Shown in pieces: positions 8,114-19,343 of a DNA stretch of 64,000 nt; the stretch's first letter is position 1; every line of letters starts with the position of its first letter. The position numbers were made by a program, and so were the translations under genes. Under the pieces are notes generated by a model. That model did not search any database. It was not told the DNA's origin and worked only from the letters and a program-made list of their open reading frames with translations. The stretch comes from Sediminibacterium sp. Gen4 (lineage in GTDB: Bacteria > Bacteroidota > Bacteroidia > Chitinophagales > Chitinophagaceae), in NCBI GenBank assembly GCA_013391385.1, contig JACBFI010000003.1, positions 1 to 64,000 on the forward strand, read 5' to 3'.

Positions 8114-8264
8114 GGGTGAAAAGTGAAAAGTGAAAAGTCAAAAGTCAAAAGATGGTTACTGACGCAAAAAAAAATCTAATAAAATGATTATCAATAAGTT
8201 AAAAGAATGGATATCGTACGAATTCTTGCCCTTTCACTTTTGACTTTTCACTTTTGACTTTTGA
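8114..8264. repeat. Self-complementary GTGAAAAGTCAAAA repeat (ileS / hemJ gap)
   Basis: Left arm 8114-8151 is a run of GTGAAAA and GTCAAAA units; right arm 8229-8264 carries the complement. They are separated by about 77 nt with nothing recognisable. The right arm encodes the last codons of HemJ (FKSQK and stop). The rest of the gap up to the ileS start shows no gene. Confidence 0.8.
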
Positions 8265-8859
8265 ATTCATTACTCCTCATTCTCTTATACACCCGAATCG
8301 CACTCATGAGCAGCAGCACAAATAAGATCAGCCCAACCAGCCCCCATATAAAACTGAGGCTTTGTTTTACTACCACCAGCATGACGATAGAGATAAGGAA
8401 AATAGTGGCTACTTCATTCCAAATACGGAGTTGATTAGAAGAATATCGATAAATGCCTGCGATCTCCTGCTTAAAAATACGATGCAGAGAAAAATGATAG
8501 ACATACAAAAACAAAACAAAAATGAGTTTTACCAATAACCATCTTCCGGATGCATCAAAAACAACTTTATCCCAATTGCCATGAAATAAAACTGACAATC
8601 CAAAAATCAAAGTAAGAATCGCAGATGGCCAGGTGATCCCATACCATAAGCGTTTCATCATAATTGAAAACTGTTCACGCAACACTTTACATTCCATCTC
8701 ATTTTTATCTCCGGCCTCAGTGGCATAAATAAAAAGTCTAGGCATATAAAACAACCCCGCAAACCAGGTAACGATGAATATGATGTGTAGTGATTTGAGG
8801 TATTCGTACAAGAATTTGAAAATTTGAGAATTTGAAAATTTGAAAATGAAGATGCTCAT
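8248..8859 (-). CDS. hemJ: Protoporphyrinogen IX oxidase HemJ
   Basis: Membrane protein that oxidises protoporphyrinogen IX to protoporphyrin IX, the step before ferrochelatase. The N-terminal conserved block LHIIFIVTWFAGLFYMPRLF with its essential His is present, followed by a MKRLWYGITWPSAILTLIFG helix and further helices, in total four to five membrane segments. hemH lies directly upstream on the same strand, which supports the role. The first 16 codons of the ATG-started frame are made of palindromic repeat sequence; family members start at a position equal to the TTG at 8811 (LYEYLKSLHI), so translation may begin there, giving 187 residues. Confidence 0.88.
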   Translation of the reverse strand: MSIFIFKFSNSQIFKFLYEYLKSLHIIFIVTWFAGLFYMPRLFIYATEAGDKNEMECKVLREQFSIMMKRLWYGITWPSAILTLIFGLSVLFHGNWDKVVFDASGRWLLVKLIFVLFLYVYHFSLHRIFKQEIAGIYRYSSNQLRIWNEVATIFLISIVMLVVVKQSLSFIWGLVGLILFVLLLMSAIRVYKRMRSNEFKSQK

Positions 8860-8983
8860 TTTCAGTTACCAATATTTCATGTAATCTGTAAAGTTATAGT
8901 TCAATTTGATTGAAAGACTGTAAAATCATTCATTAAACCTTAGAACAACTCAATTTTCAAATTTTCAAATTGGAAAATTTTCA
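8811..8983. repeat. Self-complementary AATTTGAAA repeat (hemJ / hemH gap)
   Basis: Tandem AATTTGAAA units at 8811-8850 are the complement of TTTCAAATT units at 8950-8983, with nearly full identity over about 35 bp. One arm overlaps the 5' end of the hemJ frame and the other reaches the hemH stop codon. Confidence 0.8.
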
Positions 8984-10033
8984 AATTAATATCATCTCCT
9001 CCTTCCCACTCCTAATCTCCTCCATCCATTTTTCAATAGTGGCAGTCCACGCGGGGTGGACGTTGAGACAGGGGATTAGTGTAAATGATTCGCCTCCTGC
9101 ATGGAGGAAGGTTTCTTTTCCTTCCTCTCCTATTTCTTCGATGGTTTCTAAGCAATCGCTGATGAATGCCGGACAAGCTACCAATAATTTCTTAATTCCC
9201 TCTCCCGGCATAGCTTCCAAACGCTTATCTGTAAAGGGTTGTAGCCAACCGCTACCCAATCTGGATTGAAATGAGAGACTGTATTTCTCTTTAGGGATAC
9301 CTAATTTCTCTGCTACCAATTTAGTGGTCACCACCAATTGATGGCGATAACATTCTTTATGTGCCGGAGAAGCCACTTCACAACAGTTCTCTACTTTCAA
9401 ACAATGACAACCAGTGACATCACTCTTGCGGATATGTCTTTGTGGTACGCCATGGTAGCTGAATAAAATATGGTCGTAAGCTTGTTCTGTATAAGGTTTG
9501 ATAGATTCGGCCAATGCACTGATATAGGCTTCATCATCATAAAACGGTTTGATAACACTTAACTTAAATGAGTAATTATATTGTTTATGTTGCTCTTTTG
9601 CATATTCAACTGCGGTTTCATAACTACTCATTGCATAGTGCGGATACAAGGGTAACAAAACCACTTCTTCCAAAGAAGGATGTTTTTTCAATAAAGCATC
9701 ATAGGCTTCTTTAGGAGATGGCGTACCATAGCGCATAGCAATCTCGATGGGTTCTTCAATATCCTGCTGTAGTGCTTCTTGTAATTGTTTGGTGAGTACA
9801 ATCAATGGAGAACCTTCATCGGTCCAAATACTTCTGTACGCTTCTGCAGACTTAGGCGCACGAAATGGAACGATGATACCACGAACGAGCAACGCCCTTA
9901 CGATATATGGGATATCGATTACACGACCATCCATTAAAAACTGATTCAGGTATCTTCTGACATCTTTTACTTCTGTTGAATCAGGTGAGCCAAGATTCAT
10001 TAATAAGAGTGCACGTTTCGCATTCGTTGCCAT
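8981..10033 (-). CDS. hemH: Ferrochelatase
   Basis: Inserts ferrous iron into protoporphyrin IX to give protoheme. The 350-residue protein begins with ALLLMNLGSPDS, the family N-terminus, and has the catalytic His in FSYHGVPQRHI and the acidic CLETIEEIGEEG helix. A cysteine-rich stretch (CHCLKVENCC) follows the active-site His region; whether it binds an iron-sulfur cluster cannot be told. I take the second ATG (10033) over the one at 10039 because a TAACTTTG promoter box at 10051-10058 would leave almost no leader for the upstream start. The gene is divergent from hemA and is followed by hemJ. Confidence 0.95.
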   Translation of the reverse strand: MATNAKRALLLMNLGSPDSTEVKDVRRYLNQFLMDGRVIDIPYIVRALLVRGIIVPFRAPKSAEAYRSIWTDEGSPLIVLTKQLQEALQQDIEEPIEIAMRYGTPSPKEAYDALLKKHPSLEEVVLLPLYPHYAMSSYETAVEYAKEQHKQYNYSFKLSVIKPFYDDEAYISALAESIKPYTEQAYDHILFSYHGVPQRHIRKSDVTGCHCLKVENCCEVASPAHKECYRHQLVVTTKLVAEKLGIPKEKYSLSFQSRLGSGWLQPFTDKRLEAMPGEGIKKLLVACPAFISDCLETIEEIGEEGKETFLHAGGESFTLIPCLNVHPAWTATIEKWMEEIRSGKEEMILI

Positions 10034-11493: not shown

Positions 11494-12459
11494 ATGACCA
11501 AGGTAGTACGAATAGGAACACGCGACAGTCAGCTCGCCGTGTGGCAAGCCACATGGGTGCAAGAGCTCCTGAAAGAAAAAGGAGTAGCTACTGAGCTTGT
11601 GTATATTAAAAGCGAAGGAGATATTGATCTTGTAACACCACTCTACGAAATTGGTGTTCAAGGTATTTTCACGAAAACGCTGGATGCTGCCTTACTGAGT
11701 AACAAAATAGATATTGCCGTTCACTCCATGAAAGATGTGCCAACGCAACTCGCCAAAGGCATACGAGAAGCTGCAGTACTGAAACGTGCATCTCATAAAG
11801 ATATTTTGGTTTATAAAGATGATCATGTACCTCAAGCATTGGGATATGTCAATGGTGAATGGTCAACAAATCATGGGCCATGGACCATGGACCATGGACT
11901 ATTTGCTACCAGCAGCGTTCGCCGCAAAGCACAATGGCTCAATCGTTATCCTGATCATCAATTTGATAATCTGCGCGGTAATGTGAATACGCGATTACGT
12001 AAACTGGAAGAAAGTAATTGGCAGGGTGCCATTTTTGCTGCAGCCGGATTGGAAAGAATCAATCTTCGTCCGGAAAAAGCAATTGATCTCGACTGGATGT
12101 TACCTGCTCCTGCACAAGGGGCTGTAATGGTAGTGTGTAGAGAAGGAGAGACGGAAATTTTCAATAGCTGTCAACAACTCCATCATAACGAAACAGCGAT
12201 CTGTGCCCATGCAGAAAGAAATTTTTTACGTCAATTGATGGGTGGTTGTGCTACACCTATTTCAGCTTTGGCGCAAATACAAGGTGATGAAATTTTCTTT
12301 AAGGGAAATGTGGTGTCACTAGATGGTAGAGAGAAAGTTGATATCAGCACAACTGTATCTGTTTCCATAGGTGCAGAGATAGGTACCGAGGCGGGACAAG
12401 AAATTTTAGCGATGGGTGCCGCAGAGATCATTCAAGCCATTAGAAATGCAGGGAAATAA
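11494..12459 (+). CDS. hemC: Porphobilinogen deaminase
   Basis: Polymerises four porphobilinogens to hydroxymethylbilane. Present are VRIGTRDSQLAVWQA at the N-terminus, the catalytic Asp in VHSMKDVPT, the TSSVRRKAQ basic motif and the cofactor-anchoring Cys252 in LMGGCATPIS. Residues about 119-137 (EWSTNHGPWTMDHG region) are not family-like: they are encoded by tandem CCATGGA units inserted in frame just before the TSSVRRK motif. Length is 321 residues, slightly above typical. It overlaps hemD by 14 bp, implying coupled translation. Confidence 0.95.
   Translation: MTKVVRIGTRDSQLAVWQATWVQELLKEKGVATELVYIKSEGDIDLVTPLYEIGVQGIFTKTLDAALLSNKIDIAVHSMKDVPTQLAKGIREAAVLKRASHKDILVYKDDHVPQALGYVNGEWSTNHGPWTMDHGLFATSSVRRKAQWLNRYPDHQFDNLRGNVNTRLRKLEESNWQGAIFAAAGLERINLRPEKAIDLDWMLPAPAQGAVMVVCREGETEIFNSCQQLHHNETAICAHAERNFLRQLMGGCATPISALAQIQGDEIFFKGNVVSLDGREKVDISTTVSVSIGAEIGTEAGQEILAMGAAEIIQAIRNAGK
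11857..11911. repeat. In-frame palindromic CCATGGA tandem repeat inside hemC
   Basis: Three to four CCATGGA units, each itself palindromic, flanked by AATGGTCAAC and GACTATT ends that extend the symmetry. The segment keeps the hemC frame open. It has the look of the chromosomal intergenic palindromes but lies within a coding region. Confidence 0.8.
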
Positions 12460-13156
12460 GATCCACATATTATCTACCAGACCTGTAAAAAATACGTTGA
12501 TACAGGAAGCTGCTGAAAACAATATTCAGTTGGATATTATTCCATTGATTGATACAGAGCCTGTACAGGATATTGATACACAGCAAGAGGTAGAACAGAT
12601 CGCTTTACAATATGCTACAGTTGTTTTCACCAGTATGAATGCTGTTGAAAGTGTAATCACCATGTTAGATCAGCAAGTACCCGAATGGAATATTTACTGC
12701 ATGGGGAATACAACACAAGAACTGATTAGCAATTATTTTGGAGAACAGGCTATTAAGGGCACCGGTAATAACGCATTGGAACTCGCTGAACATATTTTAG
12801 ACGACAATGAAGAATTGGATGAAATATTTTTCTTCTGCGGAGACCAGCGAAGAGATGAATTACCCGCCAGACTTACAGAAGCAGGCATACAAGTAGAAGA
12901 AATAGTGGTGTATAAAACCATTCCACTATACCAAAAAATAGATACTGCTTACAATGGCATTTTGTTCTTTAGTCCAAGTGCCGTTGAAAGTTTTTTCCAT
13001 AAAAACAAAGTAACTGATTCAACTGTATTCTTTGCTATTGGAAATACCACAGAAGCAGCAATTAAGAAACATACAAATAATTCAATCATCACAGCTCATT
13101 CACCGGGAAAAGAAGAACTGGTGAGGAAAGCGATTTATTACTTTGGTGAAAGGTGA
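12446..13156 (+). CDS. hemD: Uroporphyrinogen-III synthase
   Basis: Cyclises hydroxymethylbilane with inversion of ring D. The sequence is divergent, as usual for HemD, but the layout fits: KIHILSTRPVKN at the N-terminus, FTSMNAVESV, an internal domain swap, and ILFFSPSAVESFFHKN followed by FFAIGNTTEAAIKK near the C-terminus. The ATG at 12446 was chosen since it gives the conserved start and a short overlap with hemC. The last codons and stop lie in a palindromic repeat. Confidence 0.88.
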   Translation: MQGNKIHILSTRPVKNTLIQEAAENNIQLDIIPLIDTEPVQDIDTQQEVEQIALQYATVVFTSMNAVESVITMLDQQVPEWNIYCMGNTTQELISNYFGEQAIKGTGNNALELAEHILDDNEELDEIFFFCGDQRRDELPARLTEAGIQVEEIVVYKTIPLYQKIDTAYNGILFFSPSAVESFFHKNKVTDSTVFFAIGNTTEAAIKKHTNNSIITAHSPGKEELVRKAIYYFGER

Positions 13157-13222
13157 AAAGTGAAAGGTGAAATAAAGATCACATCTTCCTCACCTTTCAC
13201 TTTTCACTTTTCACTTTTCACT
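13145..13222. repeat. Self-complementary GGTGAAAAGTGAAA repeat (hemD / hemE gap)
   Basis: Left arm 13145-13171 with GGTGAAA/AGTGAAA units pairs with 13189-13222 (about 24 of 27 positions). The loop is about 17 nt. The hemD stop codon is inside the left arm. Confidence 0.8.
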
Positions 13223-13231
13223 AAATAATCT

Positions 13232-14260: not shown

Positions 14261-14330
14261 AAGTCAAAGGTGAAAGGTGAAAAGTGAAAGGATATTGTAT
14301 TCCATTTTACTTTTCACCTTTCACCTCAAT
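14259..14330. repeat. Self-complementary GGTGAAAGGTGAAAAG repeat (hemE / hemF gap)
   Basis: Arms 14259-14291 and 14305-14330 are complementary over about 25 bp with a 14-nt loop. The unit sequence is close to that of the hemD/hemE repeat. The left arm starts at the hemE stop codon and the right arm ends 9 nt before the hemF start. Confidence 0.8.
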
Positions 14331-14338
14331 ATACCCTT

Positions 14339-15247
14339 ATGATAAAAGACCAATGGATTTCCTTTATTCATCAGCTGCAAGATGATATCTGTGCTGCTTT
14401 GGAGAAAGTAGATGGGAAAGCTACATTTCAAGAAGACAAATGGGATCGCGCTGAAGGCGGTGGTGGACGTACACGTGTGATTGGCAATGGCGCAGTGTTG
14501 GAGAAAGGCGGCGTGAATACTTCTGTTGTTTTTGGTCCGGTTACGGATATGATGCGTACACAATTAAAGATCAATGGACATAGCTGGTTTGCATGTGGAT
14601 TGAGTTTGGTGATTCATCCGTATAATCCATTTGTGCCCACTGTACATTGTAATTATCGCATGTTTGAATTGTATGATGAACAGGGAGAAGTGATAGACAG
14701 ATGGTTTGGTGGTGGTACGGATCTCACCCCTTATTATTTGTTTGAAGAAGATGCCATTCACTTTCATCAAACCTATAAAAATGCTTGCGATCAATTTGAT
14801 CCTTCATTTTACCCCACATTCAAAAAAGAATGTGATGAGTATTTTGTGAACTGGCATCGCAATAAAGAAAGAAGAGGCATTGGTGGAATTTTTTATGACT
14901 ACCAGCGTCCGGATGAAAATAAAGATGTGCAATTCTGGATGGCATTTGCAAAAGCTTGTGGTTATGCATTCATAGATAGTTATATTCCTATTGTAGAGAA
15001 AAGAAAAGAAACTGAGTTTACACCGGAAAACAAATATTGGCAGGAAATACGCAGAGGAAGATATACTGAATTTAATCTGGTACATGATCGTGGAACTATC
15101 TTTGGACTCAAAACAAATGGCAGAATTGAAAGCATCTTGATGAGTCTACCGCCAACGGTAAGATTTGATTATAATCATCAACCGGTTGAAGGCTCAAAGG
15201 AATGGGAATTGTGGCAGGCTTGTTTGTACCCGAAGGAATGGATTTAA
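14339..15247 (+). CDS. hemF: Oxygen-dependent coproporphyrinogen III oxidase
   Basis: Converts coproporphyrinogen III to protoporphyrinogen IX using O2. Family blocks are clear: the glycine-rich GGGGRTRVIGNGAVLEKGGV, HPYNPFVPTVHCNYRMFE with metal/substrate His, WFGGGTDLTPYYLFEED, and RRGIGGIFYDY. The 302-residue length is typical. Use of HemF rather than the radical-SAM HemN implies aerobic heme synthesis. Confidence 0.97.
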   Translation: MIKDQWISFIHQLQDDICAALEKVDGKATFQEDKWDRAEGGGGRTRVIGNGAVLEKGGVNTSVVFGPVTDMMRTQLKINGHSWFACGLSLVIHPYNPFVPTVHCNYRMFELYDEQGEVIDRWFGGGTDLTPYYLFEEDAIHFHQTYKNACDQFDPSFYPTFKKECDEYFVNWHRNKERRGIGGIFYDYQRPDENKDVQFWMAFAKACGYAFIDSYIPIVEKRKETEFTPENKYWQEIRRGRYTEFNLVHDRGTIFGLKTNGRIESILMSLPPTVRFDYNHQPVEGSKEWELWQACLYPKEWI

Positions 15248-15248
15248 G

Positions 15249-15731
15249 TTTGATTTTTTGATCTTTGATTTCTTGATTTTTTTCATAGCAAACGCTCCGC
15301 ATCGTTCGTACTGCTCAATTGTAATTTCGTAGGATGAATCGGAAAACTTTACAAGATAGAACAAAACAGTTCAATATCGATGTTGTATTATTTTGTGATT
15401 GTCTGCCTAAAACACCTGCCGGCTTTGAGATTGCCAAACAATTGATTCGTTCTTCAGGATCGGTAGGAGCAAATTATCGTGCAACCAGCAGATCAAAATC
15501 ACAAGCTGATTTTGCACATAAATTAAAAATTGTTCTGGAAGAAATCGACGAGTCACATTATTGGTTAGAAATCATTAAAGCAACAAAACTTAGTACCAGT
15601 AGTATCATTGATCAATTAATCTCAGAAGCAAATGAACTAACAGCTATTTTCACTGCCGCGAATAAAACGTTTGATTTAAAAATAAAGCTGAGTAAATAAT
15701 AAATCAAGAAATCAAAGATCAAAAAATCAAA
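15249..15731. mobile_element. IVS-like cassette: perfect 31-bp inverted repeats around a four-helix-bundle gene
   Basis: The arms at 15249-15279 and 15701-15731 are exact reverse complements over 31 bp and are made of TTTGATTTTTTGATC / TTTGATTTCTTGATTT-type units. They enclose one gene of the 23S-rRNA intervening-sequence protein family. The layout (long terminal stem, IVP-type ORF in the loop) is that of rRNA intervening sequences, but here it interrupts a heme-operon mRNA between hemF and hemB. Mobility is inferred, not shown. Confidence 0.6.
15334..15699 (+). CDS. Four-helix-bundle protein (23S rRNA IVP / S23 family)
   Basis: A 121-residue all-helical protein with the family hallmarks: IAKQLIRSSGSVGANYRATSRSKS followed by FAHKLKIVLEEIDESHYWLEII. 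These proteins are encoded within intervening sequences of 23S rRNA in other bacteria and have the fold of the Avd protein of diversity-generating retroelements; their biochemical function is unknown. It lies alone within perfect inverted repeats between hemF and hemB and has no obvious link to heme synthesis. No reverse transcriptase or template/variable repeat pair is nearby. Confidence 0.88.
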   Translation: MNRKTLQDRTKQFNIDVVLFCDCLPKTPAGFEIAKQLIRSSGSVGANYRATSRSKSQADFAHKLKIVLEEIDESHYWLEIIKATKLSTSSIIDQLISEANELTAIFTAANKTFDLKIKLSK

Positions 15732-15736
15732 GATCC

Positions 15737-16714
15737 ATGTATCTCCAAAGACGCAACCGCATCCTCCGCCAATCACCTGCTATTCGTGCAATGGTGGCTG
15801 AGACGATATTGAAACCTGCTGATTTTATTGCTCCTTTGTTTATTGATGAGGGAGAAAATGTGAAGACTGAAATTGCTTCTATGCCCGGGTATTACAGGAT
15901 GTCCTTAGACCTAACTGTGAAAGAGGTAAAGGTATTATGGGAAATGGGAATTCGTTGTGTACTGCTTTTTATTAAATGCAAAGACGAACTCAAAGACAAT
16001 ACCGGTAAAGAAGCATGGAATAAAAACGGATTGATGCAGCAAAGTATTAAAGCCATCAAAAATGCCGTTCCTGAAATAATGGTGATGACAGATGTCGCTT
16101 TAGATCCTTTTTCATCTTACGGACACGATGGTATCGTAAAAAATGGTGAAATCGTGAATGATGAAACAGTAGAAGCATTGGTAAAAATGAGTGTTAGTCA
16201 TGCAGAAGCAGGTTGCGATTTTGTGGCACCCAGTGATATGATGGATGGAAGAATTAGCGCCATAAGAAATGGTTTGGAAGAAAATGGATTCACGAAAGTG
16301 GGTATCATGAGTTATAGTGCTAAATATGCATCCTGTTTCTATGGTCCATTCAGAGATGCGCTGGATAGTGCTCCCGGATTTGGTGACAAAAAAACTTACC
16401 AAATGGATTTCGCCAATCGAACAGAAGCCATCAAAGAAACGTTGATGGATGTGGAAGAAGGTGCTGACATCGTGATGGTAAAACCCGCCATGGCCTATCT
16501 GGATATCATTCGCGAAGTGAAGAATGCAGTCGAAGTTCCGGTAAGTGCTTATCAGGTAAGTGGCGAATACGCAATGATCAAAGCAGCTGCTAAAATGGGC
16601 TGGTTGAATGAAGAAAAAGCGATCATTGAGAGCCTGACTTCCATTAAACGTGCAGGTGCTGATATGATAGCCACCTATTTTGCGAAAGATGCAATCAGAC
16701 TGATTAATCAATGA
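15737..16714 (+). CDS. hemB: Delta-aminolevulinic acid dehydratase (porphobilinogen synthase)
   Basis: Condenses two 5-aminolevulinates to porphobilinogen. The two active-site lysines are in IMSYSAKYASCFYGPFRDA and MVKPAMAYLDII. The metal loop reads DVALDPFSSYGHDG, that is, Asp/Ala in place of the zinc-binding cysteines of the E. coli enzyme, so this is the zinc-independent, probably Mg-activated type. Length 325 residues is usual. The start codon lies 5 nt after the right arm of the inverted-repeat cassette. Confidence 0.97.
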   Translation: MYLQRRNRILRQSPAIRAMVAETILKPADFIAPLFIDEGENVKTEIASMPGYYRMSLDLTVKEVKVLWEMGIRCVLLFIKCKDELKDNTGKEAWNKNGLMQQSIKAIKNAVPEIMVMTDVALDPFSSYGHDGIVKNGEIVNDETVEALVKMSVSHAEAGCDFVAPSDMMDGRISAIRNGLEENGFTKVGIMSYSAKYASCFYGPFRDALDSAPGFGDKKTYQMDFANRTEAIKETLMDVEEGADIVMVKPAMAYLDIIREVKNAVEVPVSAYQVSGEYAMIKAAAKMGWLNEEKAIIESLTSIKRAGADMIATYFAKDAIRLINQ

Positions 16715-16718
16715 TTAG

Positions 16719-16781
16719 TTGCCACTGAATACACAGAGAAGCACTGAAAGATTCTGTGCATTTCTGTGCATCCAGTGGCAA
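16719..16781. repeat. Self-complementary TTGCCACTGnATnCACAGA repeat (hemB / hemL gap)
   Basis: Arms of about 30 bp begin with TTGCCACTG (16719-16727) and end with CAGTGGCAA (16773-16781), with a few mismatches and a very short loop. It lies directly after the hemB stop. Confidence 0.8.
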
Positions 16782-19232: not shown

Positions 19233-19343
19233 GGGATAGTCAAGGGTGAATGGTCAATTGTCAATTGTGAATATAGTTTGTGACTTTTTATTTTATGCTT
19301 AACGCATTATTCACAATTCACAATTCACAATTGACTATTCCCC
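19233..19343. repeat. Self-complementary CAATTGTGAAT repeat (ruvB / oxidoreductase gap)
   Basis: Units such as TCAATTGTGAAT at 19233-19276 are mirrored by ATTCACAATTGACTA at 19305-19343; the outermost GGGATAGTCA and TGACTATTCCC also pair. It fills the gap between the divergent genes. Confidence 0.75.

Follow-up and report, generated by a model that had tools for sequence, protein, structure and literature searches.

A small gene of the PF05635 family and the two inverted arms of tandem heptamers that enclose it are very probably a single kind of genetic element, a class that is far wider than the intervening sequences (IVSs) of rRNA, occurs in at least five bacterial phyla and is apparently undescribed. 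The same anatomy recurs across the five phyla, the arms repeat with a period of 7 nt, and arms and protein covary. The copy in the heme operon of Sediminibacterium sp. Gen4 has been inherited in place, with losses within its clade, and its ORF is under purifying selection, with a dN/dS of about 0.1.

Anatomy of the hem cassette

The window, the stretch of 64,000 nt that was analysed, belongs to the genome designated G000. In it, a gene for a protein of 121 aa (15334–15699, forward strand) stands between hemF (14339–15247, forward strand; match to Coprogen_oxidas) and hemB (15737–16714, forward strand; match to ALAD). The protein matches PF05635 (E = 4e-16) and TIGR02436 (1.3e-22), the four-helix-bundle family of the 23S rRNA intervening-sequence protein (IVP, or S23), as well as PDB chain 2rld (E = 5e-15), deposited as an uncharacterised protein with five chains. 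An earlier note, made from the sequence alone, had described such a gene between hemF and hemB within perfect 31-bp inverted arms; the ORF, the profile matches and the neighbours confirm the cassette, and the arms are indeed found at 15249–15279 and 15701–15731. The left arm (forward strand), made of tandem 7–8-nt units of the TTTGATT/TTTGATC type, is preceded at a distance of 1 nt by the stop codon of hemF, and the right arm (forward strand) is its perfect reverse complement, with the ATG of hemB 5 nt further on. A longer pairing, 15249–15282 with 15698–15731, covers 34 nt at 97%. Between the left arm and the ATG of the IVP gene, a leader segment (15290–15309, forward strand) seems, by eye only, to be conserved across hemF–hemB orthologues. 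The predicted RNA fold of 15243–15740 includes the full 31-bp stem (z = −4.2). PADLOC returned no match, and Rfam was uninformative, its 22 weak matches (E up to 1) comprising 20 to microRNA models and none at the gathering score. Elsewhere in the operon, the HemC translation (window 11494–12459) contains the run NHGPWTMDHG, resembling an in-frame CCATGG-type repeat within a coding gene.

Inverted arms around PF05635 genes

To score arms, the two 320-nt flanks of each gene were compared for their best inverted repeat, and 13 was taken as the threshold. With cross-paired flanks as the null, the median score was 9 and the 95% point 12; the highest per cent of these scores (up to 293) came from pairs of overlapping or orthologous loci. 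The hem cassette, with a score of 31, is far above chance, and all five PF05635 matches in G000 lie between inverted arms (scores 17–31), with a different tandem unit in each.

A PF05635-type protein is present in 116 of 148 sampled Bacteroidota genomes, in up to 16 copies per genome. Removal of three duplicates of hem copies (L190, L192 and L193) left 101 of the 104 loci collected, from which seven armless divergent loci and three with flanks below 180 nt (L041, L089 and L103) were set apart to give 91; genome G127, for which there was no sequence, was left out. Among these 91 loci, most of which entered as top-scoring matches of a search and not by random draw, 68 have inverted arms when orthologous loci are counted separately: 44/53 in the genus sample, 17/30 in the phylum sample and 7/8 in the named relatives. 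By site cluster, with the divergent cluster kept apart, 48 of 67 have an armed member. Short ORFs (90–180 codons) from five IVP-bearing genomes served as the control; nine of 152 reached the threshold, five of which were IVP genes and were removed by hand, leaving 4/147 non-IVP ORFs (Fisher p = 3e-34). The earlier note had proposed that the PF05635 genes of related genomes be inspected for flanking repeats and had named their absence from other four-helix-bundle genes as the finding that would count against its reading; what these numbers reveal is the reverse. Strong arms are missing from 23 loci, 13 of which fall within the distant phylum sample of 30, a sample of best-scoring matches only.

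None of the seven loci of the divergent PF05635 group has arms, so that the gene family does not by itself generate the arm signal. Six of these seven (L034–L039), together with L047, form one same-site cluster in seven relatives, while L040 stands apart; L047 is unarmed as well, yet is counted among the 91. The divergent gene, armless and at a conserved site, is perhaps a domesticated copy.

The arms are also found on plasmids. PF05635 genes were taken from plasmids of Cyanobacteriota, Chloroflexota, Pseudomonadota, Gemmatimonadota and one member of the Bacteroidota (Bernardetia), 18 loci hand-picked, not drawn at random, among the matches listed for 23 and 36 records; 15 of them reach the threshold, in four of the five phyla, the single Bernardetia locus being unarmed. 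On four of those plasmids, 2 of 27 annotated genes are armed (p = 3e-7). The Dolichospermum arms hold TAATTCG four times each, and those of Nostoc edaphicum TAGGGAG nearly five times. Several plasmid cassettes lie between genes of the same cluster, namely cas2/cas1, cas6/cas4, cas10/cmr3 and two ribonucleotide reductase genes. On cyanobacterial plasmids, the IVP gene is found before cas1 in L321 and at cas2/cas1, cas6/cas4 and cas10/cmr3 in L323, L326 and L327. A search of 50,697 phage records with one IVP query gave no match.

Period of the arms and covariation with the protein

The period was measured at lags 3–12 on the 62 cassettes with a score of at least 15 (124 arms). The best lag is 7 in 92 of the 124 arms, 8 in 20 and 9 in 8, as compared with lag 7 in 6/124 shuffled arms; among the 15 armed plasmid loci it is 7 in 11, 8 in three and 3 in one. 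The arm words themselves are mostly spelled differently among cassettes, and these differences are related to those of the protein. Over 2,952 different-site pairs of 80 armed elements, arm similarity in ORF-relative orientation rises from 0.178 to 0.285 with protein similarity (r = 0.183, a value that none of 2000 permutations reached). A weaker rise is seen with the arms in the opposite orientation, where similarity stays near background up to 60% identity and the 11 closest pairs attain 0.227; the Spearman coefficient is 0.09 there, compared with 0.15 in ORF-relative orientation. This covariation may stem from shared descent or from recognition of the arms by the protein. On contig C35 of G000 (189455–190967), two ORF-less hairpins about 1.4 kb apart carry heptamers that nearly match the hem-cassette units.

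Inheritance of the hem cassette

The order hemF–IVP–hemB is found in G000, G080, G090, SW22112, G108 and G094 and, outside this near clade, in Segetibacter koreensis, UBA4857 and two further MAGs. Of 45 genomes with a match, 30 supplied HemB loci, and in 10 of these hemF is not beside hemB; in 15 of the remaining 20 the gene is absent, and the gap measures 6–45 nt, or 130 nt in G010. None of the 15 gene-less gaps, all of which were read, contains heptamer arms; those of G060 and G010 hold a different palindrome. The comparison of filled and empty junctions suggested in the earlier note thus finds mostly short empty sites free of heptamer arms, and not the terminators conserved in gene-less relatives that the note had named as contrary to its reading. 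In G072, which is close to G080 on the HemB tree, the gap (L053) is 26 nt long; it holds AAATCA- and GATCAA-like words, possibly the scar of a lost cassette.

Mapped on the HemB tree, the presence of the cassette requires four changes. The tree of the hem-subfamily IVPs is poorly resolved (0/15 inner branches starred), so that its presence in distant genera may be due to vertical descent or to same-site transfer. The dN/dS of the hem IVP is 0.06–0.15 in 11 of 15 pairs, dS being saturated in the other four. The arms are themselves well conserved: between G000 and G108 each hem arm is identical at 29/31 positions, as against 70/197 (36%) of the four-fold sites of hemF and hemB, and the left arm is identical to that of G094 at 28/30. 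Inspection by eye revealed no target duplication at the hem cassette. Sediminibacterium goheungense DSM 28323 carries the cassette, and the heme operon of this species (L054 and L272) has three IVP genes, one between hemF and hemB, one between hemB and hemL and the last downstream of hemB at a distance of about 2 kb.

Turnover at other sites

The flanks of four further loci were sought in six relatives, not all sites being found in all genomes, and the sites proved to be occupied in some relatives but not in others. In G090, site C retains the arms and has lost most of the ORF by deletion; at site B, G074 has a short loop within arms that, by eye, are of the same type; at site D, the cassette of G000 is oriented oppositely to those of G080, G108 and G072. 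An IVP gene present in relatives is missing from G000 at six places, two of them resting on flanks of 32–44% identity and some of the compared stretches exceeding 1 kb; at four of the six, G000 has an ORF-less palindrome.

Among 139 elements, left after a truncated second copy was dropped from 140 IVP ORFs, pairs of IVPs with at least 76% identity are same-site in 31 of 31 cases, those with 60–76% in 96/147 and those with 40–60% in 79/1288 (32/32, 97/148 and 83/1301 with that copy included). On this time scale the elements are therefore sedentary, and no recent jump to a new site was seen among the 139.

The two arms of one locus tend to change together. In 13 of 19 same-site pairs the similarity between the arms of a locus exceeds their similarity to the orthologous arms, and these 13 include all 11 pairs with less than 75% protein identity. 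In the same vein, the ORF-less hairpin between hemE and hemF is built of GTGAAAG in G000 and of TAGTGAG- or GTGAATA-type heptamers, in both arms, in G090, SW22112 and G108; the palindrome between hemD and hemE has GTGAAAG units in both G000 and G090.

ORF-less palindromes

The earlier note had pointed to ORF-less palindromes of similar short tandem units in neighbouring gaps, and in this it was correct. Two of them consist of GTGAAAR heptamers, one at the hemD–hemE junction (13142–13225), where its start falls within the 3′-terminal part of the upstream ORF, and one in the hemE–hemF gap (14268–14326), where close relatives have other heptamers in the same place. Further tandem-unit palindromes lie at 8119–8267, at 8813–8987 (8-nt units; in a Ferruginibacter MAG, similar neighbours flank an IVP gene) and at 19245–19343. 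The palindrome in the hemB–hemL gap (16719–16781) is of another unit type than these, and seven relatives (G090, G108, G083, G050, G047, G043 and G092) have an IVP gene in that gap.

Defined as tandem arms with loops of up to 300 nt, ORF-less palindromes were sought in 80–100 kb per genome, and in 360 kb of G000, which contains 34 (9.4 per 100 kb). The density is 2 to 10 per 100 kb in seven of eight Chitinophagaceae with IVP genes; the exception, G084, has one IVP gene and no palindrome. Ten genomes without armed IVP genes (860 kb) have none; genomes whose single PF05635 match is of the weak divergent type were counted as having no IVP gene, a type judged by score alone in G061, G064 and G067. 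Within Chitinophagaceae the number of palindromes follows that of IVP genes (Spearman 0.83, n = 14, uncorrected for relatedness), and all four IVP-rich genomes sampled outside the family (80 kb each) are free of them. ORF-less palindromes thus seem to need IVP genes, but IVP genes are not always accompanied by palindromes.

The palindromes resemble decayed versions of this element, or satellites of it. The idea of an autonomous cassette with non-autonomous copies, advanced in the earlier note, holds as far as the heptamer arms common to both and the tie of palindromes to IVP genes within Chitinophagaceae are concerned; as a statement about active mobility it is weak, since all 31 close IVP pairs are same-site. 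Intrinsic terminators were considered and rejected: a T-tract follows none of 18 codirectional ORF-less palindromes, and divergent genes flank 5 of 30 intergenic ones. Two tandem-armed ORF-less palindromes on C35 of G000 (79396–79463 and 88117–88172) are inside long ORFs (978 and 493 aa). A short palindrome of the GAAGGACTCCTTC type occurs at two unrelated sites (the right flank of L005, and L146) and represents another small repeat family.

Proposed mechanism and alternatives

The cassette reproduces the anatomy that the earlier note had likened to an rRNA IVS, an ORF inside the arms of a long stem, and this anatomy recurs around the gene family. We propose, with somewhat better than even confidence in the explanation as a whole, a gene-in-hairpin element that combines RNA processing with recognition of the arms by the IVP. 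The PF05635 (IVP/S23, Avd-related) gene and its two heptamer arms would act as one unit, lodged between genes that often belong to one operon. The hem copy would be co-transcribed with its operon, and its RNA would fold into the 31-bp stem, the ORF making up the loop; this would be a substrate for an RNase III-type enzyme like the stem of an rRNA IVS, which RNase III excises without ligation. Cutting would separate the hemF and hemB messages and free that of the IVP, an oligomer of which would recognise its own arm type, bind the stem and control processing or stability. The parts of this scheme differ in strength. That an IVP recognises its own arm type has, in our judgement, slightly less than an even chance; RNA processing as the working step, for which the stem is predicted and the cutting argued by analogy with the rRNA IVS, we put forward tentatively. 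For the hem copy we hold, with moderate confidence, that RNA processing is the most likely working step and DNA-level copying its main rival, perhaps with both at work.

Transcription in the sense direction would suit such a role. Of 118 IVP genes, 96 are sense and five antisense within codirectional pairs, 10 lie between convergent and seven between divergent genes; by site cluster, sense outnumbers antisense 44 to 2. The 18 plasmid cassettes, oriented by annotation, show no clear bias (eight sense, five antisense, one convergent, four undetermined), and from these and the flipped cassette at site D it follows that sense transcription is not obligatory. Arm mismatches read on the ORF strand comprise 36 GU and 39 AC, a ratio in which selection for RNA pairing is not visible, and those of codirectional ORF-less palindromes nine GU and seven AC; the GU/AC test thus gave no support to an RNA stem under selection.

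This GU:AC symmetry is what a hairpin element acting at the level of DNA would display, one in which fold-back copying with slippage by one heptamer, each arm serving as template for the other, creates the arms and keeps them complementary and RNA processing is irrelevant. The concerted turnover of arms in 13/19 same-site pairs, the replacement of heptamers in both arms of the hemE–hemF hairpin across G000, G090, SW22112 and G108, and the inverted cassette at site D all fit such a process, to which we give roughly one chance in three. It is opposed by the strong sense bias in Bacteroidota and by the hem arms, which are almost frozen, as well as by the retention of the hemD–hemE units between G000 and G090; moreover, the orthology of turned-over arms is assumed, and replacement of one element by another would give the same picture. 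A classical mobile element, with the IVP as transposase or recruiter and the ORF-less palindromes as MITE-like sequences moved in trans, would account for the patchy occupancy of orthologous sites, for palindromes that track IVP number in Chitinophagaceae and for the several copies, up to 16, in one genome. We regard it as unlikely, given that every close IVP pair is same-site, that no recent jump or (by eye) target duplication at the hem site was seen, and that the sampled IVP-rich genomes outside the family lack palindromes; furthermore, RVT_1 is unmatched in G000, G108, G047 and G092 and Y1_Tnp in G080, all of them rich in cassettes or hairpins.

More improbable still is the insertion of the gene into the loops of pre-existing host hairpins, terminators or stabilisers, in the way rRNA IVSs sit at helix tips. 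The palindromes of G000 at 4/6 places where relatives have an IVP, and the short-looped arms of the same type (by eye) at site B in G074, are what one would expect of it; the 15 empty hemF–hemB sites without heptamer arms and an arm type that follows the protein across sites disfavour it, and the ORF-less palindromes are not terminators and are absent from the ten sampled genomes without armed IVP genes.

Relation to known systems

Among the closest parallels to the proposed gene-in-hairpin element is the 23S rRNA IVS, for example that of Coxiella burnetii. According to the accessible part of its description (PMC4990558), it has a 28-bp stem with tandem heptamers that RNase III cuts mid-stem at the first heptamer, and its S23p ORF undergoes reductive evolution and is probably not expressed. 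As far as that text goes, both it and the hem cassette carry an S23p/IVP-type ORF in a stem of about 28–31 bp, both have tandem units in their arms (heptamers in the Coxiella 5′ arm, 7–8-nt units in the hem arms; PMC4990558), and they are of similar size (428–444 nt against 483 nt; PMC4990558). The hem copy differs in lying between protein genes and not in an rRNA helix, and in having an ORF under purifying selection, whereas that of Coxiella, on the same account, is undergoing reduction. A crude short-motif check of 140 elements for a 23S rRNA context gave one 10-nt match and no such context. Heptamers need not mark every IVS, but given those in the Coxiella arms, rRNA IVSs seem to form only one part of a broader class, and the rRNA intervening sequence is recast as part of a much larger class of intergenic elements.

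A resemblance of PF05635 to Avd of diversity-generating retroelements is pointed out in PMC10053308, where structures 4DWL and 2GSC are cited. The present elements differ from these retroelements in that RVT_1 is unmatched in G000 (98% complete), and genomes without an RVT_1 match led us to reject reverse transcriptase as a required partner. Described 7-bp tandem repeats, in the parts of the reports that were accessible, lie between genes, some of them forming hairpins, with unknown function and no linked gene named; here an IVP gene is enclosed by heptamers, also on plasmids of cyanobacteria, and repeats described without a gene are now given one. Framing of PF05635 genes by heptamer arms outside rRNA was not found described in a literature search conducted largely outside subscription journals, nor in the accessible text of PMC4679880, PMC4990558, PMC11270868, PMC5524665, PMC2670836, PMC4692102, PMC4046671 and PMC10053308. 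The small protein, widespread as it is (116/148 Bacteroidota genomes), gains a function to look for, and concerted change of the arms with their complementarity preserved is a molecular puzzle that can be tested.

It is tempting to speculate that the Bacteroidota palindromes, the cyanobacterial STRRs, the heptamers of rRNA IVSs and perhaps those of Xanthomonas all belong to one element class, in which a hairpin held by the IVP promotes the copying of one arm from the other, heptamer by heptamer; we think this unlikely as it stands, though not negligibly so. Were it true, a single class would conserve only a protein of the IVP/Avd type and a stem that repeats every 7 bp, and its arms would stay complementary while their sequence drifts in concert.

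With REP/RAYT palindromes (PMC3733652), the elements share the many short intergenic palindromes per genome. They differ in that their arms are tandem heptamers without one common sequence and in that a Y1 transposase is unneeded; RAYT/REP as a required partner was rejected on the strength of G080, which has eight PF05635 matches, nine ORF-less palindromes per 100 kb and no Y1_Tnp match. The single Y1_Tnp match of G000 (C59, 89901–90420) adjoins a palindrome containing CTCCGGACTAAAGTCCGGAG, an arrangement like that of a RAYT and its REP.
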